From Roseiflexus sp. RS-1 (GTDB taxonomy: Bacteria > Chloroflexota > Chloroflexia > Chloroflexales > Roseiflexaceae), in NCBI RefSeq assembly GCF_000016665.1, contig NC_009523.1:1240001-1304000 (forward strand): a stretch of 64,000 nucleotides of DNA, in the 5' to 3' direction. The first letter of the stretch is position 1. Every line of letters starts with the position of its first letter. The notes under the pieces are model-generated. The model searched no databases. It saw only the letters and a list, made by a program, of their open reading frames with translations, and was not told the DNA's origin. A program made the translations under genes and the position numbers. Positions 17,369-61,586 of this stretch are shown here, one piece after another.

Positions 17369-18537
17369 AGGTGCAGAGCCTTTCCAGCACGGTAAGACGA
17401 CGACGTGCAACGATATGATTCACTGCCGGTTGTGCGATAACGGGTGCAAGGCAGGCGCCTTGGGTTGCATTGATGTGCCCATGATTCTATAACGATACAT
17501 TATGCACATTGTAGCATGGGTTTCTGAATAGAACGCGGATGGGCGCGGAGGTTGCCTGATGAATAGCCCACGGATGTGCACGGGTGCGACGGATCGGCAC
17601 GGATTACAGCATTTCTCAGATACATTGACATCGTTCATATCTGCCGTGTCGCACGAGACGCCCGCTTCCGGCGGAGAGTAGACTGTTTAATAATCCGCTA
17701 CAGCCCGCGCAGGCGGGCGTCGCCTCGCAGAGCCGAGGGCTTATGGTCTTTGAATAAATAATCCGGTATAGCCCGCGCCGGCGGGCTTTGCCCTGGTTAG
17801 CCGAGGGCTTATGGTCTTTGAATAAATAATTCGGTATAGCCCGCGCCGGCGGGCTTCGCCTTGGCTAGCCGAGGGCTTATGGTCTTTGAAGAAATAATCC
17901 GGTATAGCCCGCGCAGGCGGGCTTTGCCCTGGATAGCCGAGGGCTTCAGCCCCACGGCTAGCGCAGTATAGCGGATTTAATTTTCAATCTCCATGAGCCC
18001 CACGGCGTGCCGTCGCCCTGAAGGGCTCGACGAGCAGGGCAAAGGCCGCTGACGCGGCCTGCTGGCAAGCCCGCGCAGGCGGGCTTCCCGCCTGCCAGCC
18101 GCGACTTCAGTCGCCAGGCGGCGAGCGAAAACACCCTGTCGCACAAGGTTCGTCGTTCCGACACCGAAACAGTCATGCGACCCGGTGTGCTCAGAGCCTA
18201 TCCGAAAAACTGTAACCTTTTCGCCTGTGGCGTGATCGCCGTGCGTGCCGCCGGGTTATTCGGATAGGCTCTAAGTACTCAATCTCCATCAGCCCGCAGT
18301 CTCCGCATGCGGGCGGGGACGCCCGCGCACCCAGGATGCACGGGGTTCACTCATCCTGCCCATCGCGATACATGCTCAATCTTCATCAGCCGCACGACAT
18401 TTCGGTCTCCTTTCCACCACCCAGGGTAGTTCGTCATCACCGCGTGACCGATCAGCAACGGACGGCATGCGCAGGCGTGTCGTAGCACGCACAGGCGGCG
18501 GTTTCTGTATGATCCATGCGGGCATGCTGGTGAATGG
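17369..18537. repeat. Long intergenic repeat cluster (MITE A fragment, MITE B array, MITE C)
   Basis: No gene is seen. At about 17605-17690 is an inverted fragment of MITE A (CAGCATTTCTCAGATA). From 17690 to about 17990 is a direct array of roughly 68-bp units, each with CCCGCGC.GGCGGGC, GCCGAGGGCTTATGG and TCTTTGAATAAATAATCCGG. The array ends in a full MITE B end (GGATTTAATTTTCAATCTCC). 18000-18272 is an inverted copy of the 260-bp unit found at the window end, including MITE C. At 18290-18345 is another dispersed hairpin (GCATGCGGGCGGGGACGCCC) that recurs near 49780 and 50025. Confidence 0.75.
18193..18272 (-). mobile_element. MITE C, solo 80-bp copy
   Basis: Ends AGAGCCTATCCGAA and TTCGGATAGGCTCT form perfect 14-bp terminal inverted repeats. 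The copies at 63226, 63486 and 63746 have the same 80-bp length in the opposite orientation. Here the third base of one end and its partner are A and T, where two of the other copies have C and G, so pairing is kept. Confidence 0.75.
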
Positions 18538-27501: not shown

Positions 27502-27635
27502 CGCGTTCCCTCCTTTTTGCGCAAACTGTGAAAAGGTTTGACCGTGTTTCCGTCGGGGAACGCACAATGGAGAGGCTGCGCACCGTGAAGGAGATGAAAA
27601 CGGCGACCGGCAGAAGAAGCCGATGACCGGTTCCG

Positions 27636-27716
27636 ATTTCCTACGCCGGCATTACCCGGATCAGGTGCGAAGGGTAACTTCTCAGCCTCGCTCTGTCAGC
27701 GAAGCGCCCCTACGGA
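27636..27716 (-). ncRNA. TPP (THI-element) riboswitch
   Basis: Read on the minus strand the element runs TAGGGGCGCTT ... GGCTGAGA ... TACCCTTCGCACCTGATC then CGGGTAATGCCGGCGTAGGAA. The CTGAGA and ACCTGAT ... AATGCCAGCGTAGGGA-type blocks are the diagnostic TPP-binding cores. It lies about 135 bases before the tenA start and after a consensus promoter. Expected to lower expression when thiamine pyrophosphate is abundant. Confidence 0.95.
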
Positions 27717-27725
27717 ACGGTATGG

Positions 27726-30316: not shown

Positions 30317-30764
30317 ACGCGCCTCCTGTGTGGTGCAAGTTCCATGATAACACAGACGCGTATACTATAGCAGTTCCCATTGAGGTTGAACCAATTGGAC
30401 CGGGTTGAACACTCCCAGAATCGCGCTCCCGACACGGTGACCGAAATGATGAAGATTGAAAATTAAATCCGCTATACTGCGCTAGCCGTGGGGCTGAAGC
30501 CCTCGGCTAACCAGGGCAAAGCCCGCCTGCGCGGGCTACACCGGATTATTTATTCAAAGACCATAATTTCGGTCTACGCTCTGCCGGAAACGGGCATCTC
30601 ACGCGACACGGCGGATAGGAACAATGGTCAATGTATCTGAGAAATGCTATAAAAAAGTAATCCTGACTACAGCAGCGCAGCAGGCGTAGCATGGATGGAA
30701 ATCTCTGCGCGCCCGGCGCCTCTGCGGTGCGCTTTTGCGGCAAAGGACTCACTGCGCATGTCGA
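30317..30764. repeat. Intergenic region: MITE A interrupted by MITE B
   Basis: MITE A ends are at about 30366 (TATAGCAGTTCCCA) and 30651 (TGAGAAATGCTATA). Its central palindrome, read as CCGAAATGAATTTCGG in the intact copy at 54663, is split after CCGAAATG. The insert runs from ATGAAGATTGAAAATTAAAT to ATTTATTCAAAGACCATAAT (about 30447-30567), which is a full MITE B. The stretch 30652-30764 shows no gene. Confidence 0.75.
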
Positions 30765-49505: not shown

Positions 49506-50421
49506 CTCTTTCGTCGCCAGGCTATCGTGCGTCGGTCGCTGCAGGCGCCTGAACAGTAGACCGAAATTCATTTCGGTCACCTATCGTAGACCGAAATTAT
49601 GGAGATTGAGCATTAAATCCGCTATACCGCGCTAGCCGTGGGGCTAAAGTTCTCGGCTATGTGAGGCGAAGCCCTCCCTGAGCGCGTGGAAGCCCCTGCG
49701 GGGCTATAGCGTGCTCACCGCTGAGAGCGATGGGCAGCACGATTGAACCACATGCGTCCTGGGTGCGCGGGCGTCCCCGCCCGCATACGGAGACTGCGGG
49801 CTGGTGGAGATTGAGAAATAAATCCGCTATCCCGCGCCAGCCGTCGGGCTGAAGCCCTCGGCCAGGCAAGGCGAAGCCCGCCTGCGCGGGCGCGACGTTG
49901 CTCGTGCGGGCTGAAGCCCTCCCTGAGCGCGCGGAAGCCCCTGCGGGGCTATAGCGTGCTCACCGCTGAGAGCGATGGGCAGCACGATTGAACCACATGC
50001 GTCCTGGGTACGCGGGCGTCCCCGCCCGCATGCGGAGACTGCGGGCTAGTGTAGAATAAATCCGCTATCCCGCGCCAGCCGTCGGGCTGAAGCCCTCGGC
50101 TATACGGGGCAAAGCCCGCCTGCGCGGGCTGGATTAGAGCACGGCGATGCGACGCCGAAGCGGCGCCGTCAGGGCACGGCATGCCGTGCCCCGACCTGCA
50201 GCCGGAAACAGGCGCCTCGCGCGCCATGGCAGGCCCAGACTATTCCAGACAAAACTCATCACAAGGGTTTTCATCTTTGTCAGTCAGGGGTTATCCGGCG
50301 CATCGCGCCACAGCGAACGTTCACATCAGGCACATAGCACCAGGGCAAACGCTCAAACCTTCAACCTTCAACCCCCAACCCTCCCACCTTCAACCTTCAA
50401 CCTTCAACCTTCAACCCCGCC
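49506..50421. repeat. Repeat-filled gap between lipoprotein gene and def
   Basis: At 49556-49602 are two copies of the MITE A palindrome GACCGAAATTCATTTCGGTC; the second is cut after GACCGAAATT by a MITE B start (ATGGAGATTGAGCATTAAAT). About 49667-49890 and 49912-50140 are a roughly 245-bp tandem duplication (CCTCCCTGAGCGCG, GAGAGCGATGGGCAGCACGA, GCGGGCGTCCCCGCCCGCAT). At 50354-50417 is a heptamer microsatellite (CAACCTT type) that ends four bases before the def stop. No gene is seen. Confidence 0.75.
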
Positions 50422-51080: not shown

Positions 51081-51109
51081 TTGACAGCCTGGCGTCCTGG
51101 TGGTACACT
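51081..51109 (+). promoter_or_regulatory. Promoter of the lysine biosynthesis operon
   Basis: TTGACA (51081-51086), a 17-base spacer and TACACT (51104-51109). Transcription would start near 51116, 28 bases before the leader peptide. Confidence 0.85.
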
Positions 51110-51143
51110 GCGCAACGCAATATCGCACGAGTTGGACATCAGT

Positions 51144-51206
51144 ATGCATTCCCTGTTCGTCAAGCAGGTCAAGCAGAGCAAAAAGCCGGACTCCTGGTCT
51201 GGTTAG
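51144..51206 (+). CDS. Lysine leader peptide (attenuator)
   Basis: An open frame of 20 codons, MHSLFVKQVKQSKKPDSWSG then TAG. Four of eight consecutive residues are lysine (codons at 51162, 51171, 51180 and 51183). It sits between a consensus promoter and a terminator at the head of lysine biosynthesis genes. A ribosome slowed at the lysine codons would leave CCTGGTCTGG (51193-51202) free to pair with CCAGACCAGG (51248-51257) in the terminator loop. A ribosome reaching the stop would cover it and let the terminator form. Lysine attenuation by a leader peptide is known in Thermus; here it is inferred from sequence. Confidence 0.75.
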   Translation: MHSLFVKQVKQSKKPDSWSG

Positions 51207-51237
51207 GCTCGCTTGTCCTGCTGTGTGGTAGACAGGC

Positions 51238-51276
51238 GCCCGCTTCGCCAGACCAGGTGAAGCGGGCTTTCTGTTT
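51238..51276 (+). terminator. Attenuator terminator before lysT
   Basis: GCCCGCTTC (51238-51246) and GAAGCGGGC (51259-51267) form a 9-bp stem. The tail is TTTCTGTTT. The loop contains CCAGACCAGG, the exact complement of 51193-51202 in the leader peptide frame, so the two structures are mutually exclusive on topological grounds. Confidence 0.8.
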
Positions 51277-51294
51277 GTGTCTCAGGAGGGTATC

Positions 51295-52560
51295 GTGGGG
51301 CAAACGCTTGCAGAACAGATCCTTTCACACGCTGCCGGGCGTCCGGTCTCCGCCGGCGAGAATATCGTCGCCAGGATTGATCTGGCGATGATGCACGACA
51401 GCATCTCACCGAGCATCATCAAAATCCTGCACCACGAATTGGGCGCCGAACGGGTGTGGGATCGCGACCGTGTGGCAGTGGTGGTGGACCACGTTGCACC
51501 GGCGGCGACGATCCAGAATGCTGAGCATCAACTGGCGCTGCGACGGTGGGTGCGTCAGCAGCAGATCACGCATTTCTTCGATGTCGGGCGCGGCATTTCG
51601 CATCCGGTACTGGTCGAGGAGGGGCTGGCGCGCCCCGGTATGCTGATCATCGGCAGCGACTCGCACTCAACGGCGTATGGCGCGGTCGGGGCGTTTGGCG
51701 CCGGCATGGGTTCCACCGATATGGCGCTGGCGCTGGCGACCGGGCAGACGTGGCTGCGTGTGCCGGAGACGGTGCGCATCCTGGCGCGTGGGCGGTTTCA
51801 ACCTGGGGTGGGCGCAAAGGATCTGGGGCTGCGCGTAGCGCGTCTGATCGGCGCCGATGGCGCGACCTATCAGTCGGTCGAGTGGCACGGCGTCGAGGAA
51901 TTGAGCATCGGCGAACGGATGACGCTCGCCACGCTCTCTGTTGAAATCGGTGCGAAGGCAGGGATCATTCCGCCTGTCGGTCCCGGCTGGGAAGAGCACG
52001 CCACCCGTCGCGGCATCACCGTCCCGTCATGGTTGCGCGTCGAAGAGGGAGCGCGCTACAGTCGCACCGTGGAGGTCGATCTCGACACCCTTGAGCCGCA
52101 GGTGAGCGTGCCGCACTTCGTGGACAATGTGCGTGACCTGAGCGATCTGGGGCGTGTTGAGGTGGATGTGGTCTATATTGGCACCTGCACGAACGGTCAT
52201 GCGAACGACCTTGCTGCTGCTGCGCGCATCCTGAAGGGGCGCAAAGTGGCGCGCGGTGTGCGCCTGCTCGTGGTGCCGGCGTCGAGCGAAGCGTTGCAGC
52301 AGGCGACGGCGGATGGAACGCTGGCGACACTCCTTGAATCCGGCGCAGCCATTGGCACCCCTGGATGCGGCGCATGTATCGGGCGGCATATGGGCGTCCT
52401 GGCGCCCGGCGAGGTCTGCCTGTTCACCGGCAACCGTAACTTCCGCGGGCGCATGGGATCGCCGGAGGCGCAGATCTACCTGGCGTCGCCTGAAGTTGCA
52501 GCGGCGACGGCAGTGCTCGGGTATATCGCCCATCCGGCGGAGGTGGTGAACGGGCGGTGA
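51295..52560 (+). CDS. lysT: Homoaconitase large subunit (aconitase family)
   Basis: A 421-aa protein that holds the [4Fe-4S] cluster: VVYIGTCTNGHANDL (first Cys) and GTPGCGACIGRHMG (CxxC). Other family motifs are MMHDSISPSIIKILHHELG, VVDHVAPAATIQNAEHQLAL and IIGSDSHSTAYGAVGAFGAG. It isomerises homocitrate to homoisocitrate with LysU. On sequence alone it could be isopropylmalate isomerase; the LysW cluster around it makes homoaconitase the better call. Start GTG 51295 follows AGGAGG; GTG 51277 lies in the terminator T run. It is the first structural gene after the attenuator. Confidence 0.88.
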   Translation: MGQTLAEQILSHAAGRPVSAGENIVARIDLAMMHDSISPSIIKILHHELGAERVWDRDRVAVVVDHVAPAATIQNAEHQLALRRWVRQQQITHFFDVGRGISHPVLVEEGLARPGMLIIGSDSHSTAYGAVGAFGAGMGSTDMALALATGQTWLRVPETVRILARGRFQPGVGAKDLGLRVARLIGADGATYQSVEWHGVEELSIGERMTLATLSVEIGAKAGIIPPVGPGWEEHATRRGITVPSWLRVEEGARYSRTVEVDLDTLEPQVSVPHFVDNVRDLSDLGRVEVDVVYIGTCTNGHANDLAAAARILKGRKVARGVRLLVVPASSEALQQATADGTLATLLESGAAIGTPGCGACIGRHMGVLAPGEVCLFTGNRNFRGRMGSPEAQIYLASPEVAAATAVLGYIAHPAEVVNGR

Positions 52561-53219
52561 GTAAAAGGAATCACCTCGTGATCATTGATGACATACCTCT
52601 GTTTGTGCGCGCTATGCTTATCGGTCTCAGCATCGCTGCACCTGTCGGACCTGTCAGTCTGCTGTGCATCCGCCGCACGCTGGCAGACGGATTTGCTGCC
52701 GGTCTGGCGTCGGGAATGGGCGCTGCAACTGCGGATGCCGTCTATGGAATTGTTGCCGGGTTTGGGCTGACCTTCGTCACGGTATTGCTGACCGGCGGAG
52801 AGTTCTGGTTGCGCTTGATCGGCGGTTTGTATCTCTTCGCTACCGGCGTCGCAACGTTTCTTGCTCGACCAACCGGGCATGCTACGTCGGTCAACCGTCG
52901 TCATCTGTCTGGCGCATGGGCATCGACGTTTGTGCTCACGCTGACCAATCCGGCGACCATTCTGGCGTTCGCTGCGATGTTTGGCGGTGTGGGACTGACA
53001 TACCAGGCGCACGCCAGCGATCCTGCTGTCATCGTTGTGGTTCTGGTGTCAGGAATCTTCACCGGCTCGGCGATCTGGTGGATGCTTCTGTGCATGAGTG
53101 TGAGCCGGTTGCGCACGCGACTCGATCAACGCGCCACGGTCTGGATCAATCGTGTGTCGGGTGTTGCCATCGCCGCGATCGGCGCCCTGGCGATTGGCAG
53201 TCTGTCAGGATCAGGGTAG
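52557..53219 (+). CDS. LysE/RhtB family amino-acid exporter
   Basis: A 220-aa membrane protein with six hydrophobic segments. The family signature is AMLIGLSIAAPVGPVSLLCI with GFAAGLASGMGAATADAVYG; later STFVLTLTNPATILAFAAMF and GSAIWWMLLCMSVSRLR also fit. LysE-type carriers export basic amino acids and related compounds. It starts at GTG 52557, overlapping lysT by four bases, so its expression is tied to lysine biosynthesis. Export of lysine or of an aminoadipate-type intermediate is inference. Confidence 0.9.
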   Translation: MSKRNHLVIIDDIPLFVRAMLIGLSIAAPVGPVSLLCIRRTLADGFAAGLASGMGAATADAVYGIVAGFGLTFVTVLLTGGEFWLRLIGGLYLFATGVATFLARPTGHATSVNRRHLSGAWASTFVLTLTNPATILAFAAMFGGVGLTYQAHASDPAVIVVVLVSGIFTGSAIWWMLLCMSVSRLRTRLDQRATVWINRVSGVAIAAIGALAIGSLSGSG

Positions 53220-53232
53220 AGGGAGACGACCG

Positions 53233-54375
53233 GTGCATCTCGAAACAATCTCCATCCATGCCGGGCAGGAGATCGATCCGACAACCGGATCGGTCATCCC
53301 GCCGATCTACCTGACAACGACCTTTGAACGCGCGCCCGACGGGAGTTTTCCGCACGGGTACATCTACACGCGCAATGGCAACCCCAATCGCGCGATGCTC
53401 GAAACCTGCCTGGCGACGCTCGAGGGCGGCGCAACCTGCGTGGCGTTCAGTTCGGGGCTTGCGGCGGCAATGAGCATCTTTCAGGCGTTGCGTCCCGGTG
53501 ACCACGTCGTTGCGCCCGACGATGCCTACCACGGGGTGACGCGATTGCTGCGCGACATCATGGCGCCGTGGGGTCTGGAGTATACCCGCGTCGATATGCG
53601 CGATCCGCAGAACGTTGCGGCTGCGCTGCGCCCGAATACGCGCCTGGTCTGGATCGAAACCCCTTCCAACCCGCTGCTCAAAATTGCCGATATTGCTGCG
53701 ATTGCGAGCATTGCCCATCAGGCAGGCGCGCTATGTGCGGTCGATAATACCTGGGCGACGCCGGTGCAGCAGCGTCCGCTCGAACTCGGCGCGGATATGG
53801 TGATGCACGCAACAACCAAATATATCGGCGGGCACAGTGATGTGCTCGGCGGCGTGGTCGTTTTCCGCGAGAACGATGCGTTTGCGGAACGGGTGCGTTT
53901 CTTGCAGATCAACGGCGGGGCGGTTCCGTCACCGTTCGACTGCTGGTTGACGCTGCGCGGCATTCAGACGCTGACGTACCGGGTGCGCGCTCACGCTGCC
54001 AGTGCGATGCGGGTCGCCCGTTTCCTGGCAACCCATCCGCGTATCGAACGTGTCCACTATCCGGGGCTGGAAACCCATCCCGGTCACGCGGTCGCCGCCC
54101 GGCAGATGCGCGGTTTTGGCGGCATGATCTCGATTGAGGTTCAGGGTGGCGAGGCGGCGGCAATGGCGGTCGCGGCACGGGTACGGATTATCACCCGCGC
54201 CACCAGTCTGGGCGGCGTCGAAAGCCTGATCGAACATCGCGCATCGGTTGAAGGACCGGAGAGCGTCACCCCGCCCAACCTGCTGCGTATCTCGGTCGGT
54301 CTCGAGCATCCTGATGACCTGATCGCCGACCTGGCGCAGGCGCTGGAGGTTGATGACGTTTCGCCGCAGCGGTGA
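53233..54375 (+). CDS. Cys/Met metabolism PLP enzyme (cystathionine gamma-synthase/lyase type)
   Basis: A 380-aa fold-type I PLP enzyme. Signature segments are FSSGLAAAMSIFQAL, DDAYHGVTRLLRDI, WIETPSNPLLKIADI, AVDNTWATPVQQRPLELGAD, HATTKYIGGHSDVLGGVVVF with the PLP lysine, and GVESLIEHRASVEGPESVTP. Start GTG 53233 has GAGGGAG upstream. It lies 13 bases after the exporter gene. It could be cystathionine gamma-synthase, beta-lyase or gamma-lyase. It is not the LysJ aminotransferase, which is a different subclass. Why it sits in the lysine operon is not explained by the sequence. Confidence 0.88.
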   Translation: MHLETISIHAGQEIDPTTGSVIPPIYLTTTFERAPDGSFPHGYIYTRNGNPNRAMLETCLATLEGGATCVAFSSGLAAAMSIFQALRPGDHVVAPDDAYHGVTRLLRDIMAPWGLEYTRVDMRDPQNVAAALRPNTRLVWIETPSNPLLKIADIAAIASIAHQAGALCAVDNTWATPVQQRPLELGADMVMHATTKYIGGHSDVLGGVVVFRENDAFAERVRFLQINGGAVPSPFDCWLTLRGIQTLTYRVRAHAASAMRVARFLATHPRIERVHYPGLETHPGHAVAARQMRGFGGMISIEVQGGEAAAMAVAARVRIITRATSLGGVESLIEHRASVEGPESVTPPNLLRISVGLEHPDDLIADLAQALEVDDVSPQR

Positions 54376-54915
54376 ATCGGTTCTTAAGTCCGGTCTGGTC
54401 TGCGCAGGCGGGCTTCGCACCACATAGCCGAGGGGTTATCGTAGCCGATAGCCGATAACCCATAGCCGATGGTCGAGAGGGTCGCCGTTGGAGTTCGCGT
54501 TCCGCGCAGGCGGGCTTCGCACCACATAGCCGAGGGGTTATCGTAGCCGATAACCGATAGCCGATGGTCGAGAGGGTCGCCGTTGGAGTTCGCGTTCCAC
54601 GCAGGCGGGCTTCGCCTCGCCTGGCCGAGGGCTTTAGTCCGACGGCAAGCGGCCATACGGATTATAGCAGTTCTCACAAAGGTTGAACCCAATGGACGGA
54701 GTTGAACATTCCCGGAGTCGCGCGCCTCACGCGGCGACCGAAATGAATTTCGGTCTACACTTTGCCGGAAGCGGGCGTCTTGCGCGATACGGTGGATACA
54801 GACGATGGTCAACATATCTGAGAAATACTGTAAATTCTTAATCTTCATCAGCCCCGCGGCACGAGGCGAATACCGGTTTCTATTCTCATCGGTGAGATGC
54901 AGAAAGGACAGAACA
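54376..54915. repeat. Intergenic repeats inside the lysine cluster, with an intact MITE A
   Basis: At 54390-54600 are two inverted copies of a repeat with GCGCAGGCGGGCTTCGC, ATAACCGATAGCCGATGG and GTCGCCGTTGGAGTTCGCGT, which carries CCGATAG heptamers. Next is a MITE B-like hairpin to 54655, then MITE A (54663-54832). No gene or clear promoter is seen before lysU. AGAAAGGA is its ribosome site. Confidence 0.75.
54663..54832. mobile_element. MITE A, shortest intact copy (170 bp)
   Basis: Ends TATAGCAGTTCTCA and TGAGAAATACTGTA are inverted repeats. The centre is a palindrome CGACCGAAATGAATTTCGGTC (21 bases; core ACCGAAATGAATTTCGGT). TA at each end fits a TA target duplication. It serves as the reference to recognise longer or interrupted copies at 30366, 39439, 39852 and 62860. 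Confidence 0.8.
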
Positions 54916-55416
54916 ATGGCTCGAATCTGGCGTTTTGGCGCGAATGTCAATACCGATCAGATCGTTCCCGGTCGTTATGCGCCCTATATGCTGAAGAGCG
55001 AGGAAGAACTGCGCAACTATCCGTTCATCGAGGCGCGCCCGGAGTTTGCTTCGACCGTGCGTCCCGGCGACCTGATCATTGCCGGTCCGAACTTCGGGTG
55101 CGGCTCATCGCGCGAATACGCGCCGCTGGCGCTCAAGATGGTCGGCATCGGGGCGATTATCGCGCCGCTGTTTGCGCGCATTTTCTACCGCAATGCGCTC
55201 AACCTGGGCATTCCGCTGTTCGAGGCGGATCTGACCGGTCAACTGGAGGATGGGCAGGAGGTTGAATTCAATGTCGAGACCGGCGTTATCATTGCCGATG
55301 GGCGCACCATTCAGTTGCCGCCGCCGCCCGAATGGATGCGCGAGGTCTGGCGCGAGGGCGGCATCGTTCCGTTCTACCGCAAGTATCGACGCTTCCCCGG
55401 AGCCGTGACGGTATGA
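54916..55416 (+). CDS. lysU: Homoaconitase small subunit
   Basis: A 166-aa swivelling domain partner of LysT. FGANVNTDQIVPGRYAPYML, GPNFGCGSSREYAPLALKMV and FARIFYRNALNLGIPLFEAD are the small-subunit motifs shared with LeuD. The size is as for archaeal-type HacB/LysU. It starts at ATG 54916 with GAAAGGA and overlaps the dehydrogenase gene by four bases. The large and small subunits are split by 2.4 kb holding the exporter, the PLP enzyme and repeats. Confidence 0.9.
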   Translation: MARIWRFGANVNTDQIVPGRYAPYMLKSEEELRNYPFIEARPEFASTVRPGDLIIAGPNFGCGSSREYAPLALKMVGIGAIIAPLFARIFYRNALNLGIPLFEADLTGQLEDGQEVEFNVETGVIIADGRTIQLPPPPEWMREVWREGGIVPFYRKYRRFPGAVTV

Positions 55417-56501
55417 GTGCAGCGCCGTACACCATTCTGGTCATCCCCGGCGACGGCATCGGGCGTGAAGTGATCCCGGCGGCGGTCGCAGTCTTGCGCG
55501 CTACCGGCTTGCCCTTCCACTTCGAGAACGCCGACGCCGGGTGGGAATGTTTCCAGCGCCAGGGGGAGGCGCTTCCCTCCGCTACGCTCACTGCTGCGCG
55601 CGCCGCAGACGCGATCCTGTTCGGCGCCGTCGCCTCGCCCGGCTACCCGGTCGCCGGGTATCGCAGCCCGATTGTCCGGTTGCGCCGCGAACTCGACCTG
55701 TACGCCAATATCCGCCCGGTTTTCGACGATCTGCCGGAGAACGGCAGCAACCCCCGGCGGCGGAAGGTCGATCTCGTCGTGGTGCGCGAGAACACGGAAG
55801 ATGTGTACGCCGGACGCGAACGGGTCGAGGATGATGGGGCGACTGCGATCGCCGAGCGTGTCATCACCCGGCGCGCCAGCGCGCGCATCATGCGCGTCGC
55901 CTGCGACCTCGCGCGCGCCCGGCGCAGTGCGCGCAACGGATCAGACGCGCCGCCGGGCAGGGTCACCGTCGTTCACAAAGCGAATGTGTTGCGCGAAACG
56001 TGCGGACTGTTCCGCTCCGTCGCGCTGGAGGTCGCACAGGCATACCCCGATCTCCAGATCGATGAGATGCTGGTCGATACCTGCGCACTCCAGCTCGCCA
56101 CCCGCCCCGAACGGTTCGATGTTATCGTCACCACCAACCTGTTCGGCGATATTCTGTCGGACGTTGCGTGCGCCTGGGGCGGCGGGTTGGGTCTGGCGCC
56201 GTCGGCGAACCTGGGTGAACGGCATGCCCTGTTCGAGCCAGTGCACGGCGCAGCGCCCGACATTGCCGGGAAAGGGATTGCCAATCCGCTGGCGGCGATT
56301 GGATGCACCGCGCTGCTTCTTGACCATCTTGCCGGTCGTGCACCGGCAGACCTGGCTTCCGCCATGCGCGGTTGGAGCGCACGCATCCAGCGCGCCATTC
56401 GCCACGTGCGCGCTGCCGGTCCACACACGCCCGACCTGGGGGGGAGCGCAGTCACAACCGATATAACCAACGCAGTATTATCCCATATGCTCACCACATA
56501 A
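55413..56501 (+). CDS. lysB: Homoisocitrate dehydrogenase
   Basis: A 362-aa beta-decarboxylating dehydrogenase. [19 protein letters not shown] and [20 protein letters not shown] are the family core. [20 protein letters not shown] is the substrate helix: its SPI..LR..LDLYANxRP form matches Thermus homoisocitrate dehydrogenase rather than Leu[16 protein letters not shown] and [17 protein letters not shown] (Lys) follow. It oxidises homoisocitrate to 2-oxoadipate with NAD. ATGA overlap with lysU. Confidence 0.9.
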
Positions 56502-56517
56502 GAAAGGAGACATCGCC

Positions 56518-56685
56518 GTGCGTGCCACATGCCCGGAGTGTGAAGCCGAAATCACCCTTCCCGAAGGCACAGTCGAGGGGGAGATCCTCACCTGCCCCGA
56601 ATGCGCCGCCGAACTGGAAGTCGTCAGTATCGATCCGCCGGAACTGGCGCTCGCGCCGGAAGTTGAAGAGGACTGGGGAGAGTAA
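56518..56685 (+). CDS. lysW: Amino-group carrier protein LysW
   Basis: A 55-aa acidic protein starting at GTG with AAGGAG upstream. [16 protein letters not shown] and [18 protein letters not shown] form a zinc ribbon. The C terminus VEEDWGE carries the invariant EDWGE whose last Glu is linked to the amino group of alpha-aminoadipate. LysW protects and carries the intermediates through LysX, LysZ and LysY. It lies 16 bases after the dehydrogenase gene and three bases before lysX. Confidence 0.97.
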
Positions 56686-56688
56686 CGT

Positions 56689-57537
56689 ATGCGAGTTGGC
56701 GTCCTCTGCTCACGCATCCGCGTCGAGGAGAAACTGCTCTTCGCCGAACTGGAACGACGCGGCATCGCCTATGAACGCATCGACGACGATGATGTCATTT
56801 TCGATCTCAACGAAGGACGCTACGAGTACGACGTTGTGCTCGAACGGAGCATTCACCATTCACGCGCGCTCTATGCACTGAAGGTCTTCAACGATGCTGG
56901 CGTTCCGACGGTCAATACCGCGTATGTCGCCGACATCTGCGGCGACAAGTTCAAGACCACCCAGGCGCTGATCCGCGCTGGCGTGCCGACGCCGCGCACC
57001 CGTATGGCGTTTACGCCGGAATCGGCGCTGCGCGCTATCGAAGACCTTGGCTATCCGGTCGTGCTCAAACCTGCGATTGGATCCTGGGGGCGCCTGATCG
57101 CCAAGGTCAACGACCGTGAAGCGGCAGAAGCATTGCTCGAACACAAACAGATCCTCGGCTCATACCATCATTCGATCTTCTACATTCAGGAGTACATTCC
57201 CAAACCACACCGACGCGACATCCGCGCCTTTGTCGTCGGCGACGAGTGCATCTGCGCGATCTACCGCACGAGTGAGCACTGGATCACCAACACCGCGCGC
57301 GGCGGGATCGCAAGCGTTTGCCCGGTGACGCCAGCGCTGGCAGACCTGTGCGTCAGCGCGGCGTATGCAGTCGGCGGCGGGGTAGTCGCCATCGATGTGC
57401 TCGAAGCGTCCGATGGCAGGCTGCTGGTGAACGAAGTGAACTACACCATGGAGTTTCGCAACAGCATCGCGCCAACCGGCGTAGACATCCCGGCGCGGAT
57501 CATCGATTACACGCTGGCGGCGGCAAAGAAGGGATAA
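56689..57537 (+). CDS. lysX: Alpha-aminoadipate-LysW ligase LysX
   Basis: A 282-aa ATP-grasp ligase (RimK type) that joins alpha-aminoadipate to the C-terminal Glu of Lys[21 protein letters not shown] starts the pre-ATP-grasp fold. ATP and metal motifs are [40 protein letters not shown], and [20 protein letters not shown] with the E-x-N metal site. It directly follows lysW. Assignment to LysX rather than the glutamate-specific ArgX rests on the homoaconitate genes beside it. Confidence 0.93.
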
Positions 57538-57554
57538 CCGGGAGGAGTGTTCGC

Positions 57555-58601
57555 ATGAGCGTCCGTGTCTCTATCGTCGGCGGCAGCGGCTACGTCGGTG
57601 GTGAACTGCTGCGGTTGCTCCTCTTTCATCCGCTGGTAACCGTCGCGCAGGCAACCTCCGAGCGTCTGGCGGGCAAGCCGATCACTGTCGCCCATCCGAA
57701 CCTGCGTGGCATTCCCGCAGCGCGCGAGGTGCAGTTTACCTCGCAGGATCGACTGACGCCGTGCGATGTCCTGTTTCTGGCGCTGCCGCACGGCGACGCT
57801 GCCCGCGCTATCGACCGCTTTGCAGAACTTGCGCCGAAGATTATCGACTGCTCCGCCGATTTTCGTCTGCGCGATCCGGCGTTGTACGCCCGCTGGTACG
57901 GCGAAACGCATCCAGCGCCGCACTGGCTGGAGCAGTTCGTGTACGGTCTGCCGGAACTGCACCGTGACGCTATCCGCACTGCCAGGTACGTCAGCGGTGT
58001 CGGATGCAACGCGACCGCAACCAACCTGGCGTTGCTGCCGCTGGTGCGCGTCGGACTGATCGACCCCACGCGCGATGTGATTGTCGAGGTGAAAGTCGGC
58101 TCGTCGGAGGGTGGTGCGCAACCTGGCGAATCATCGCACCACCCGGAGCGGAGCGGGGCGGTGCGCTCGTTTGCGCCCGTCGGTCACCGGCATACTGCCG
58201 AGGTCGTGCAGGAACTCGGGCTATCGCGAGTTCACCTGTCGATCACGAGCGTCGAGTTGGTGCGTGGTGCGCTTGCCACTGCGCACGCATTCGCCAGCGC
58301 TCCGGTGAGCGAAAAAGATCTGTGGCGCGCATTCCGCGCTACGTATGGCAGTGAGCCGTTCGTGCGCATTGTACGTGAAAAGCAGGGGGTGTACCGCCTG
58401 CCGGAACCGAAAATCCTGGCGGGAAGCAACTATGCCGATGTCGGGTTCGCCGTCGATGAAGAGACCGGACGGATCGTATCGATCTGCGCCATCGACAATC
58501 TGATGAAAGGCGCAGCCGGAACCGCTGTGCAATGTATGAACCTGATGTGCGGCTTCGAGGAGCGTACCGGTCTGGAGTTTCCTGGATTACATCCGATTTA
58601 G
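57555..58601 (+). CDS. lysY: [LysW]-aminoadipate 6-phosphate reductase LysY
   Basis: A 348-aa ArgC-type NADPH dehydrogenase. VSIVGGSGYVGGELLRLLLF is the Rossmann motif, YVSGVGCNATATNLALLPLV has the active-site Cys, and PVGHRHTAEVVQELG a conserved His. The C-terminal DNLMKGAAGTAVQCMNLM is typical of ArgC/LysY. It reduces LysW-bound aminoadipyl phosphate to the semialdehyde. Start ATG 57555 follows GGGAGGAG; a longer frame upstream overlaps lysX and is spurious. Confidence 0.94.
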   Translation: MSVRVSIVGGSGYVGGELLRLLLFHPLVTVAQATSERLAGKPITVAHPNLRGIPAAREVQFTSQDRLTPCDVLFLALPHGDAARAIDRFAELAPKIIDCSADFRLRDPALYARWYGETHPAPHWLEQFVYGLPELHRDAIRTARYVSGVGCNATATNLALLPLVRVGLIDPTRDVIVEVKVGSSEGGAQPGESSHHPERSGAVRSFAPVGHRHTAEVVQELGLSRVHLSITSVELVRGALATAHAFASAPVSEKDLWRAFRATYGSEPFVRIVREKQGVYRLPEPKILAGSNYADVGFAVDEETGRIVSICAIDNLMKGAAGTAVQCMNLMCGFEERTGLEFPGLHPI

Positions 58602-59131
58602 GAGAACTAAGAACCAAGAACTAAGAACCGAGGACTAAGAACTGAGAACTGAGAACCGAGGACTAAGAACTGAGAACTGAGAACCAAGAACCAGGAACCA
58701 AGAACCGAGAACCGAGGACTGAGGACTGAGAACCAGGAACTGAGAACCGGGGACTGAGGACTGAGAACTGGATGTTGTGCAGAGACCGGTCGTGCGTCTA
58801 CCTGGCGGTTGATGAAGAACTTAAGGAAATAAACCGGTATGCGCCTCGTGCCGTGGGGCTAATGGAGATTGAGCACTTAATCCGGTTGCGCCTCTGGCCG
58901 TCGGGCTGAAGCCCTCGGCTATACGGGGCAAAGCCCGCCTGCGCGGGCTGACGCATGCCGTCGGGCTGATGGAGCCGGTATTCGCCCTTTGCCGTCGGGC
59001 TGAAGCCCTCGGCTATACGGGGCAAAGCCCGCCTGCGCGGGCTATACCGGACTTAATTTCTTAAAGATCATAAGCCCTCGGGCAGGCGAGGCGAAGCCCG
59101 CCTGCGCGGAACACGAACTCCAACGGTGACC
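58602..59131. repeat. Heptamer microsatellite and MITE B-like repeats
   Basis: 58602-58771 is a degenerate heptamer array of type AGAAC(C/T)(A/G), with variants such as AGGACTG, starting one base after the lysY stop. From about 58830 to 59095 are two MITE B-like hairpin units (GGGCTGAAGCCCTCGGCTAT, AAAGCCCGCCTGCGCGGGCT). 59095-59131 has the CGAACTCCAACGGTGACC segment that also precedes the heptamers at 12030. No gene is seen. Confidence 0.8.
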
Positions 59132-59265
59132 CTATCGGTTATCAGCTATCAGCTATCGGCTATCGGCTATCGGCTATCGGCTATCGGCTATCAGCTATCG
59201 GCTATCGGCTATCGGCTATCGGCTATCGGCTATCGGCTATCGGCTATCGGCTATCGGCTATCGCC
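59132..59265. repeat. (CTATCGG)n heptamer array, about 19 units, next to a start codon
   Basis: About 19 tandem units of CTATCGG with a few TTATCAG or CTATCAG variants. The array ends ten bases before the ATG at 59275 of the homocitrate-synthase candidate and occupies the place of its ribosome site and 5' leader. Confidence 0.9.
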
Positions 59266-59274
59266 TAGAGATGT

Positions 59275-60786
59275 ATGGACATGTCACCAATACCAGAGTT
59301 CTTGCGCAGCGAAAACCCGGCGCAGCCGCGGTACCACGAAGCGGTTGAACTGTTTGCCCTGTTCGACTACCTGAAAGCCATGCGCTGGGGGGTCTTCAGC
59401 ATCCGCGAGTCCCTCCAGGCGGTCGGCGAATGCCGCGACGGGACGCTCCAGGGATTTCATCTGACCGTCGATGAAGCATGGGAAGCCGTGCGCGGCATGG
59501 ACTCGCTCGGAGTCGGGGTGATCGAACTTCCCGCATTTCCCGCCAACCCGCCGGGACAGGCGTTCAACCGCCGTCTGCTGGAGCGCGCCGAAGCCCATCG
59601 CCTGACGACGACCTTCGCCGCGCATGCGCGCTGTGTGGCAACCGACATTCGCACCGCCGCAGAAACCGGCTTTCGCCGTCTCCACCTCTACATCGGCGTC
59701 AGCCCGATCAAGCAGGCAACGGTGCGCGCAAACGCGACGCAGCTTGCTGATCGCGCCTTCGATGCCATTCATCTGGCGCGCGAACTCGGCTTCGACTGTG
59801 TGCGCATCAGCACCGAAGACGCCTACCGCACGCCGCTGGACGACTACCGCGCCTTCTATGAGCGCTTGCAGGATCGCCTGATCCGTCACAACCTGCACGT
59901 CGATGGCATTGGCATCCCCGACACCGTCGGCGTTGGCACGATTGACGATCTCGGTGACCGGATCGCCATTCTGCAGCATATCGGCATCCGGTTTGCCTTT
60001 CTCGAATGTCACATCCACAACGACATCGGGCACGCTGATCGGTTATACGTCGATACGCTGATCCTCTGCATGCGACTGGGCATCATGATGCTCCCTGATT
60101 TCTCGATCCTGGGGATTGGCGAACGCAACGGGACGATCGGTCTCAGTTCGCTGATCGAAGCCATCTACCGGCGATTGTTGCTCCTCTACCCGCGGTCGAT
60201 GCCCGCCATCCGTCAGGCAGTGCGCGAGAAGCTTGGTGTGCTGCCCGACGGTGAACTGTTCGTCAACCGCTACCGTGACCTCGATTCATTCTTCTACCGG
60301 ATTCTGGCGCGCAGCGGCTTTGTGTTCGACCGGAGTCCGTTTTCATCGAACACCGAGTACGATGGTTCCGGCGTCCACGCCGACACCACCCTGCGCGCAT
60401 TTCGCCTGGCGCTGGAGAACGGCTACGAAGGGCAGCGGGCGATTGATCTCGGCAACAGCGCCTACGCCGGGGCGCTGCCGCCCTACGACATGCCGCTGCG
60501 CACGCCAGTGCTCGCCTGCTTCGGCTGCGGCAAGAGCAACGTGCGCTTCTGGCGCGAACGGGAACACCTGGTCCTGCGTCATCCCGATGACATTCGCCTC
60601 AGAATTGCGCCCTACGCCGATGATCTTGCCGAAGAGAGCCTGCATATTCCAACCGACGAGGCAACCGCCGATGAACTCGCTGCACGGTTGATTCGCTGCG
60701 CCAGTGTGCGCGAAGGCGGGATCAACCATCACCAGGCAATGGAGATCGTCCGACTCTTCTACCGTCCAAAGGAGGCATGCGCATGA
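59275..60786 (+). CDS. HMGL-like (DRE-TIM) acyltransferase, candidate homocitrate synthase
   Basis: A 503-aa protein. A divergent DRE-TIM barrel: GVFSIRESLQAV occupies the place of the R-D/E-x-x-Q helix, ELPAFPANPPGQ and RISTEDAYRTPLDDYRAFYE follow, GIGIPDTVGVGTIDDLGDRI is strand 6-7, and LECHIHNDIGHADRLYVDTL has the metal-binding HxHND. GIGERNGTIGLSSLIEAIYR matches the GxGERxGN motif. About 150 extra C-terminal residues follow (ACFGCGKSNVRFWRERE). As the only such enzyme in the cluster it probably makes homocitrate from 2-oxoglutarate and acetyl-CoA, though the altered R-D motif leaves doubt. Start ATG 59275 or 59281; no ribosome site. ATGA overlap with lysZ. Confidence 0.75.
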   Translation: MDMSPIPEFLRSENPAQPRYHEAVELFALFDYLKAMRWGVFSIRESLQAVGECRDGTLQGFHLTVDEAWEAVRGMDSLGVGVIELPAFPANPPGQAFNRRLLERAEAHRLTTTFAAHARCVATDIRTAAETGFRRLHLYIGVSPIKQATVRANATQLADRAFDAIHLARELGFDCVRISTEDAYRTPLDDYRAFYERLQDRLIRHNLHVDGIGIPDTVGVGTIDDLGDRIAILQHIGIRFAFLECHIHNDIGHADRLYVDTLILCMRLGIMMLPDFSILGIGERNGTIGLSSLIEAIYRRLLLLYPRSMPAIRQAVREKLGVLPDGELFVNRYRDLDSFFYRILARSGFVFDRSPFSSNTEYDGSGVHADTTLRAFRLALENGYEGQRAIDLGNSAYAGALPPYDMPLRTPVLACFGCGKSNVRFWREREHLVLRHPDDIRLRIAPYADDLAEESLHIPTDEATADELAARLIRCASVREGGINHHQAMEIVRLFYRPKEACA

Positions 60787-61586
60787 TTGTCGTCAAAGTC
60801 GGCGGCGGCGCCAGCATCGCCTATGATCCGCTCTGCGACGACCTGGCGACACTGACACGCGCCGGTCAGCGTTTCGTGCTGGTGCATGGCGGCTCCCATG
60901 AAACCAACACCCTTGCCGAACGGCTCGGACATCCACCCCGCTTCGTGACATCACCCTCCGGGTACACCAGTCGCTACACCGACCGTGTGACCCTGGAACT
61001 CTTTCTGATGGCGACCGCCGGCAAAGTCAACAAACTGATCGTTGAGCGTCTCCAGCATATGGGAGTGAACGCCATCGGTCTCTCCGGTCTCGACGGGCGC
61101 ATCCTTCAGGGGCAGCGCAAGGCGGTCATTCGCATCATCGAAGATGGCAAACAGAAAGTTCTGCGCGACGACTGGACCGGGACGGTTGAACAGGTCAACA
61201 CCGACCTGCTGCGTCTGCTGCTGGACGCCGGACTGTTGCCGGTCATTGCGCCGATTGCCGTCAGCACCATCGGCGAAGCGCTCAATGTTGACGGCGACCG
61301 CGCGGCGGCAGCGATTGCGGCTGCGCTTGGCGCCGACACGCTTGTGCTGCTGACCAACGTTCCTGGTCTGCTGCGCGCATTTCCCGACGAACGCACCCTT
61401 GTGCGGCACATTCCGCGCGCCGATGTCGAAGCGTACCTGCCGCTGGCGCAGGGGCGGATGAAGAAGAAAATCCTGGGCGCGTCCGAAGCGCTCAACCAGG
61501 GCGTGGGGCGGGTCATCCTCGGTGACGCGCGCGTATCCGAACCGGTCTCGCGCGCGCTTGCCGGCGAAGGCACGGTCATCGCATGA
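60783..61586 (+). CDS. lysZ: [LysW]-aminoadipate kinase LysZ
   Basis: A 267-aa amino-acid kinase (ArgB type) that phosphorylates LysW-bound aminoadipate. IVVKVGGGASI is the N-terminal nucleotide loop, VLVHGGSHETNTLAERLGHP the substrate loop, PIAVSTIGEALNVDGDRAAA the NVDGD motif, and LVLLTNVPGLLRAFPDE the end of the ATP site. RMKKKILGASEALNQGVGRV is a conserved Lys-rich loop. Start ATG 60783 follows AGGAGG at the end of the preceding gene, with an ATGA overlap. Confidence 0.95.
   Translation: MIVVKVGGGASIAYDPLCDDLATLTRAGQRFVLVHGGSHETNTLAERLGHPPRFVTSPSGYTSRYTDRVTLELFLMATAGKVNKLIVERLQHMGVNAIGLSGLDGRILQGQRKAVIRIIEDGKQKVLRDDWTGTVEQVNTDLLRLLLDAGLLPVIAPIAVSTIGEALNVDGDRAAAAIAAALGADTLVLLTNVPGLLRAFPDERTLVRHIPRADVEAYLPLAQGRMKKKILGASEALNQGVGRVILGDARVSEPVSRALAGEGTVIA

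Follow-up and report, generated by a model that had tools for sequence, protein, structure and literature searches.

The region ahead of lysT in Roseiflexus sp. RS-1 is, with high probability, a lysine-specific, ribosome-mediated transcription attenuator, and a shortage of lysine very probably turns on the Roseiflexus lysine genes through a leader peptide and a switchable hairpin; both readings draw on sequence comparison and on modelled RNA folding. The window, meaning the whole stretch of 64,000 nucleotides that was analysed, comes from a genome of 5.80 Mb in a single contig; its closest named relatives, judged by lysT, are Roseiflexus MAGs (identities of 97, 93 and 92%). Leader-peptide attenuation of amino-acid genes is known mostly from Proteobacteria. 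Classical leaders have a short ORF rich in codons for the product amino acid and segments that pair as 1:2, 2:3 or 3:4, with a terminator before the first structural gene and termination when translation does not occur. The window element has a short ORF rich in codons for the product, an intrinsic terminator, an antiterminator formed by the leader end and a segment 1:2 hairpin (Table 1), the exclusivity of the pairings being an assumption of the folding model.

The promoter proposed at 51081 in the initial annotation matched the consensus at 10 of 12 positions and had an equivalent, at the equivalent position, in all Roseiflexus relatives inspected; the transcript start is predicted near 51116. 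The 20-codon frame was found exactly where it had been annotated, and its four Lys codons correspond to P ~4e-4 at the Lys frequency of the operon itself (1.75%). Also borne out were the terminator and the exact 10-base complementarity: CCTGGTCTGG (51193-51202) is the exact reverse complement of CCAGACCAGG (51248-51257), and segment 2:3 is lengthened by one U-G pair (51203/51247). For a leader of 63 nt and a terminator of 30 nt, ~0.001 exact 10-mer complements are expected, by arithmetic at uniform base composition. The duplex of leader end and terminator reached -22.1 kcal/mol (z -6.2 versus shuffles of the leader end, with 0/300 as good), and the fold of the whole leader gave z -5.8. Two parts, the segment 1:2 hairpin and hairpin P2, were absent from the initial annotation. 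The genes downstream agree with the alpha-aminoadipate lysine operon that had been proposed, and include lysT, a LysE-type transporter, lysU, homoisocitrate dehydrogenase, LysX and LysY. Elsewhere in the window, a TPP riboswitch lies at 27620-27721 on the minus strand, and the CRISPR-DR28 repeat model matches at scattered places, in some cases singly, at 17769-17928, 30515-30538, 50108-50131 and 58927-59044.

Table 1. Positions in the window of the predicted attenuator and of the lysine gene cluster that follows it.
Feature	Position	Strand	Details
Sigma-70-type promoter	51081..51109	+	TTGACA 51081-51086, 17-nt spacer, TACACT 51104-51109, extended -10 TG
Leader ORF MHSLFVKQVKQSKKPDSWSG, putative sensor, 20 codons	51144..51206	+	ATG 51144, TAG 51204-51206; Lys codons 51162-64, 51171-73, 51180-82, 51183-85 (n=4)
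Segment 1 (AGCCGGAC)	51184..51191	+	Partner is segment 2 (51197-51204) when free of the ribosome
Segment 2 (CCTGGTCTGGT), leader end, antiterminator strand	51193..51203	+	Conservation, duplex and folding tests
Segment 3 (GCCAGACCAGG), terminator loop and stem top	51247..51257	+	Complement of segment 2
Hairpin P2	51211..51237	+	GCTTGTC 51211-51217 with GACAGGC 51231-51237; inside the antiterminator, abuts the terminator
Intrinsic terminator	51238..51277	+	12-bp stem 51238-51249/51256-51267, loop AGACCA, U-rich tail TTTCTGTTTG
Shine-Dalgarno-like AGGAGG	51284..51289	+	Precedes lysT GTG 51295
lysT, homoaconitase large subunit, aconitase family	51295..52560	+	First gene under predicted control; Pfam Aconitase
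Remainder of apparent lysine cluster	52602..61586	+	
LysE-type transporter	52602-53219	+	
Cys/Met PLP enzyme	53224-54375	+	
lysU	54913-55416	+	
Homoisocitrate-dehydrogenase type	55410-56501	+	
LysX	56689-57537	+	
LysY-like	57570-58601	+	
Kinase-like ORF, probable LysZ	60777-61586	+	Assigned by reading the translation

The homologs of lysT in 75 class genomes were taken for leader extraction, and short Lys-rich leaders were present upstream of lysine genes at 56 further loci of Chloroflexales. A covariance model built from 39 leaders (R1) had matches in 65/82 Chloroflexales genomes, and R2, a model restricted to the 3' module, in 71/82; named carriers include Herpetosiphon aurantiacus, Chloroflexus, Oscillochloris, Chloroploca and Viridilinea. 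The window genome contained one credible copy by model search. Four weaker matches there were set aside, three on inspection and the fourth as the opposite strand of the leader itself. The gene that follows lysine-class leaders is lysT, homocitrate synthase or lysX. The leader of Roseiflexus and close relatives lies ~150 nt upstream of lysT, and in most other Chloroflexaceae, as well as in Herpetosiphonaceae, it lies 1.3-1.7 kb before lysT, ahead of a homocitrate-synthase-like gene (identified from reading DTTLREGEQ and from gene order) that precedes lysT.

Between the terminator and homocitrate synthase, a conserved ORF of ~36 codons lies directly 3' of the terminator (loci L084, L087, L070, L056 and L062-L069). 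In Chloroflexaceae it has MKxx followed by VAYTPRYCRPELFGSCQVR; its version in Herpetosiphon contains HRPAAVRPELFTGCSCGRIVLS, and it is not in the window, where lysT is immediately next. In genus g12, Chloroflexus (L084-L094), the terminator hairpins have a poor U-tract (GGGCCAATTGTTTG), and the predicted start site falls almost at the leader ATG, so that the leader mRNA may be near leaderless.

The initial annotation had made its reading depend on the Lys codons and the complementarity being kept in relatives, and both were conserved throughout Chloroflexales. Each of the 60 lysine-class leaders had 3-4 Lys in its last 15 codons, a count biased upward because candidate leaders were chosen partly for Lys content. 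Lys made up 25% of residues in these last 15 codons versus 1.75% in the lysine proteins of the window. At position -8 the codon was AAG in 23 leaders and AAA in 15, a synonymous exchange that points to selection on the amino acid. Cleaner evidence comes from the contrast with the 30 arginine-operon leaders that carry the common module, since these were picked out by the RNA model irrespective of their codons: they carry 0-1 Lys and 3-8 Arg (Mann-Whitney 3e-17 and 3e-15 versus the lysine class).

The pairings were tested on the 39 leaders and beyond. Segment 2:3 paired in 96% of cells versus 20-40% in slid registers, and segment 1:2 in 98% versus 1-68% when slid. The terminator covaried strongly, with 42 cells changed on both sides versus 16 in shuffles (0/500). 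P2 covaried as well, reading GCTTGTC:GACAGGC in Roseiflexus, GCTTGCAC:GTGTAGGC in many Chloroflexaceae and also CTTGTCT:AGACAAG, and 0/300 permutations were as good; RNAalifold on A1 did not return P2 because the MAFFT alignment puts the hairpin out of register, and P2 was tested by hand. Within A1 the two strands of segment 2:3 change so little that their covariation did not exceed that of shuffles; a segment 2 that has to fit both 1 and 3 would be expected to vary this little. Each family keeps an almost constant pairing of leader end and terminator, and the sequence of that pairing differs from one family to the next. Swapped sequences were seen in L064 (GGCTTGGT:ACCAGGCT) and in Herpetosiphonaceae (GCGAGTCT:AGGCTCGC and GCGGGTC:GACCCGC). 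Among the 81 non-identical members of the wider family, segment 2/3 duplexes of matched strands averaged -14.8 kcal/mol versus -12.45 ± 0.26 kcal/mol when re-dealt (0/300), with kinship left in the permutations. The terminator finder mis-called L043, L074, L143, L149, L150, L163, L164, L167 and L169, which were omitted from the state-folding and overlap statistics; most of them were retained in the table of leader-end/terminator duplexes.

Folding by ribosome position was modelled with the ribosome taken to shield 14 nt, counted from the first base of its A-site codon, and with ViennaRNA without pseudoknots, so that segment 2:3 and the terminator were treated as exclusive. The modelled states behaved as had been proposed for a ribosome paused at the lysine codons versus one at the TAG. 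With the ribosome at K7, K10 or K13 of the window leader, the antiterminator had a probability of 0.9-1.0 when RNA extended out to 51258-51262, before the terminator 3' arm is complete, and 0.58-0.84 with the full leader. The probability of the terminator was 1.0 with no ribosome or with the ribosome at UAG. A stall at K14 hides part of segment 2, and the model then favoured the terminator. Without a ribosome, segment 1:2 pairing had a probability of 0.97, and in this fold the Lys-codon strand CAAGC paired with GCUUG, the 5' strand of P2, with 1:2 closed. Among lysine leaders, at least five antiterminator pairs formed before the 3' arm in 52/57 when stalled, 33/57 without a ribosome and 0/57 with the ribosome at the stop, the stalled count being weak alone because 131/171 shuffled controls also reached five pairs. 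In these GC-rich leaders, shuffled leader ends paired appreciably (~6 pairs versus 9-10 for the real ones). At full-length equilibrium most relatives preferred the terminator even when stalled, and the predicted switch must thus be kinetic.

In the mechanism that we infer, with its start site, translation, stalling, premature termination and lysine response all predicted, RNA polymerase would start at the site given above and a ribosome would translate the 20-codon leader. When lysine is scarce, the ribosome would wait at a Lys codon and prevent both the Lys-codon region and segment 1 from pairing; the free segment 2 would pair with segment 3, P2 would form between them, and the terminator 5' arm would be trapped between two helices, so that polymerase would continue into lysT and the cluster. 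When lysine is plentiful, a ribosome at UAG would cover segment 2 together with the P2 5' strand, leaving the terminator free to form. It would form again without translation, as segments 1 and 2 would pair and CAAGC would take up GCUUG of P2.

The peptide C-terminus is strongly conserved in Chloroflexaceae and Roseiflexaceae (Pro -6 in 39/40, Gly -1 in 40/40, Ser -2 in 37/40), which would suit nascent-peptide arrest, in which the conserved end KKPxxRSG before the stop stalls the ribosome for lysine or another ligand in the manner of TnaC or SpeFL, RNA pairing being secondary. The conserved residues, however, are encoded by the RNA strands required for segments 1 and 2 (CCGG, TCTGG), and they shift with the nucleotides: L064 has RLG together with a compensated loop, L077 and L079 have RPG, and Arg leaders end in PG, TG or FG. 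Herpetosiphon retains TCTGG yet reads past SG to LLRRV before its stop, and Arg operons exchange Lys for Arg with the module kept. We regard arrest by the peptide as very unlikely. The specificity of the leader codons for Lys or Arg, strong and by operon class, likewise leaves little credence for a terminator that responds to translation in general or to the arrival of a ribosome, or for a constitutive partial terminator, even though the model predicts termination with no ribosomes as well as after the leader has been fully translated.

Control of the terminator by a ligand-binding riboswitch or a T-box, with the small ORF incidental, appears extremely improbable. L-boxes do serve lysine genes elsewhere and T-boxes reach Chloroflexi (PMC3766115), but conservation in the leader is focused on sense codons and alternative pairings, and the change of sensor codons from Lys to Arg follows the operon. 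The leader region had no Rfam match at gathering score, the models for T-box, L-box RF00168 and Trp/His/Leu/Thr leaders included, and permissive searches gave chance-level matches only. L-box RF00168 was absent from the 158 class genomes, where positive controls were detected.

For the favoured lysine-specific attenuator, the initial annotation had the antiterminator act through the terminator loop rather than the stem. This stands for the window and for most Roseiflexaceae and Chloroflexaceae, in which the median overlap of segment 2:3 with the terminator is 3-4 of 14 pairs. It does not extend to Herpetosiphonaceae (8/11 pairs) or family f4 (7.5/12), in which the antiterminators use the terminator 5' arm in the fashion of classical attenuators. 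In the loop-directed version, P2 and 2:3 would flank and clamp the terminator 5' arm and thereby block termination, and the stem should not close easily once its 10-nt loop is tied up in a 10-bp helix. Given the overlap of ~3/14 pairs, segment 2:3 and the terminator may also coexist as a loop-loop complex. The element thus poses a mechanical question, whether a helix on the terminator loop, clamped by a neighbouring hairpin, blocks termination while most of the stem stays free.

Gene context in the window fits the lysine assignment, but the element is not confined to the lysine cluster: it has relatives with Arg-rich and with Gln/Lys-rich leaders. Second model matches per genome carried the common 3' module with other codons (gene names here come from reading translations). 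The Arg-rich leaders lie directly ahead of argG, or they precede argC or a phosphoglycerate-mutase-like gene followed by argJ; in the window genome, argG is without an Arg leader and sits behind a carB-like ORF. A second Lys leader at L140 precedes lysX. Lys- or Gln-rich leaders precede LysE-type transporters, including in f1/g9 genomes, and a lysT homolog was not found in the f1/g9 genomes that have such a leader. Together these leaders probably form one homologous, re-codable attenuator family of Chloroflexota, whose constant 3' switch, made of segment 1, a segment 2 that overlaps the stop codon, P2 and the terminator, would have been duplicated or moved between operons with new sensor codons: Lys for lysT, homocitrate synthase and lysX, Arg for argG, argJ and argC, and Gln/Lys-rich for LysE-type genes, plus a lineage-specific version with apex pairing and a flanking hairpin. 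Such a family would amount to a natural codon-swap experiment, in which homologous switches have sensor codons tracking the operon. It would also predict lysine and arginine regulons and help to pin down the specificity of LysE-type transporters that are poorly annotated. In genus g9 of Roseiflexaceae (L160-L167) the gene immediately after the lysine-type leader is that of a LysE-type transporter; some of these leaders have drifted from Lys towards Gln, and their codons may reveal what the transporter carries.

Like the trp, his, thr and leu attenuators of Proteobacteria, the window element combines an ORF of product codons, 1:2, 2:3 and 3:4 pairing, a terminator and predicted termination without translation. 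Unlike them, the Chloroflexota element is predicted to sense lysine or arginine, one homologous 3' module serves the operons of several amino acids, and in Roseiflexaceae and Chloroflexaceae the antiterminator aims at the terminator apex and is accompanied by the extra covarying hairpin P2. Thermus thermophilus reportedly has a lysine leader-peptide attenuator, with Lys codons in a short leader, an alpha-aminoadipate/LysW cluster and a terminator, and it is to this reported description that the window element is alike. L-box RF00168 likewise brings about premature termination of lysine genes but, unlike the window element, binds lysine directly without a ribosome. A survey that applied the Rfam leaders of its time and included five Chloroflexi genomes listed, for amino-acid operons, only those for Trp, His, Leu and Thr (PMC3766115). 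In other species arginine is served by T-boxes and lysine by L-boxes, and Actinobacteria yielded no RNA elements for lysine or arginine (PMC1262725). Comparative genomics has given candidate his/trp attenuators in Firmicutes and Actinobacteria (PMC9413887, PMC1262725) on like evidence, a leader peptide with alternative hairpins, for other amino acids and phyla, and the triple complementary motifs of PMC1262725 resemble segments 1/2/3 of the Chloroflexota element. In keeping with the suggestion that the attenuator may be undescribed, no earlier description of a Chloroflexota, lysine or LysW leader family was found in Rfam or the open-access literature searched. One attenuator design would then span Chloroflexales and extend to other classes, which would explain lysine control where a lysine riboswitch was not found.

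In other classes, Lys leaders lie before homocitrate-synthase-like genes in f60 (L175) and f92 (L281), and Arg-type leaders before argC at L201 and L202. The LysE-type loci of f49 (L172, L173 and L176) are among those at which Gln-rich leaders (QQQP) and the module precede LysE-type transporters, together with L199 and L203-L205 (other Chloroflexota and f4). The Planctomycetota-binned contig of L258 has MKTTCKKQKQLKQRPRGSS, ending at its stop, before homocitrate synthase, and its lysT is 57% identical to that of the window; this occurrence may be due either to lateral transfer or to mis-binning. The model matches L200, L273-L275, L277, L279, L280 and L282 were weak and look like chance. In family f19 (L267-L272), the module of segment 2 and terminator loop was seen behind leaders such as NPNPSPR..SRSG before the stop, upstream of MazG-like pyrophosphohydrolase and LOG-like ORFs.
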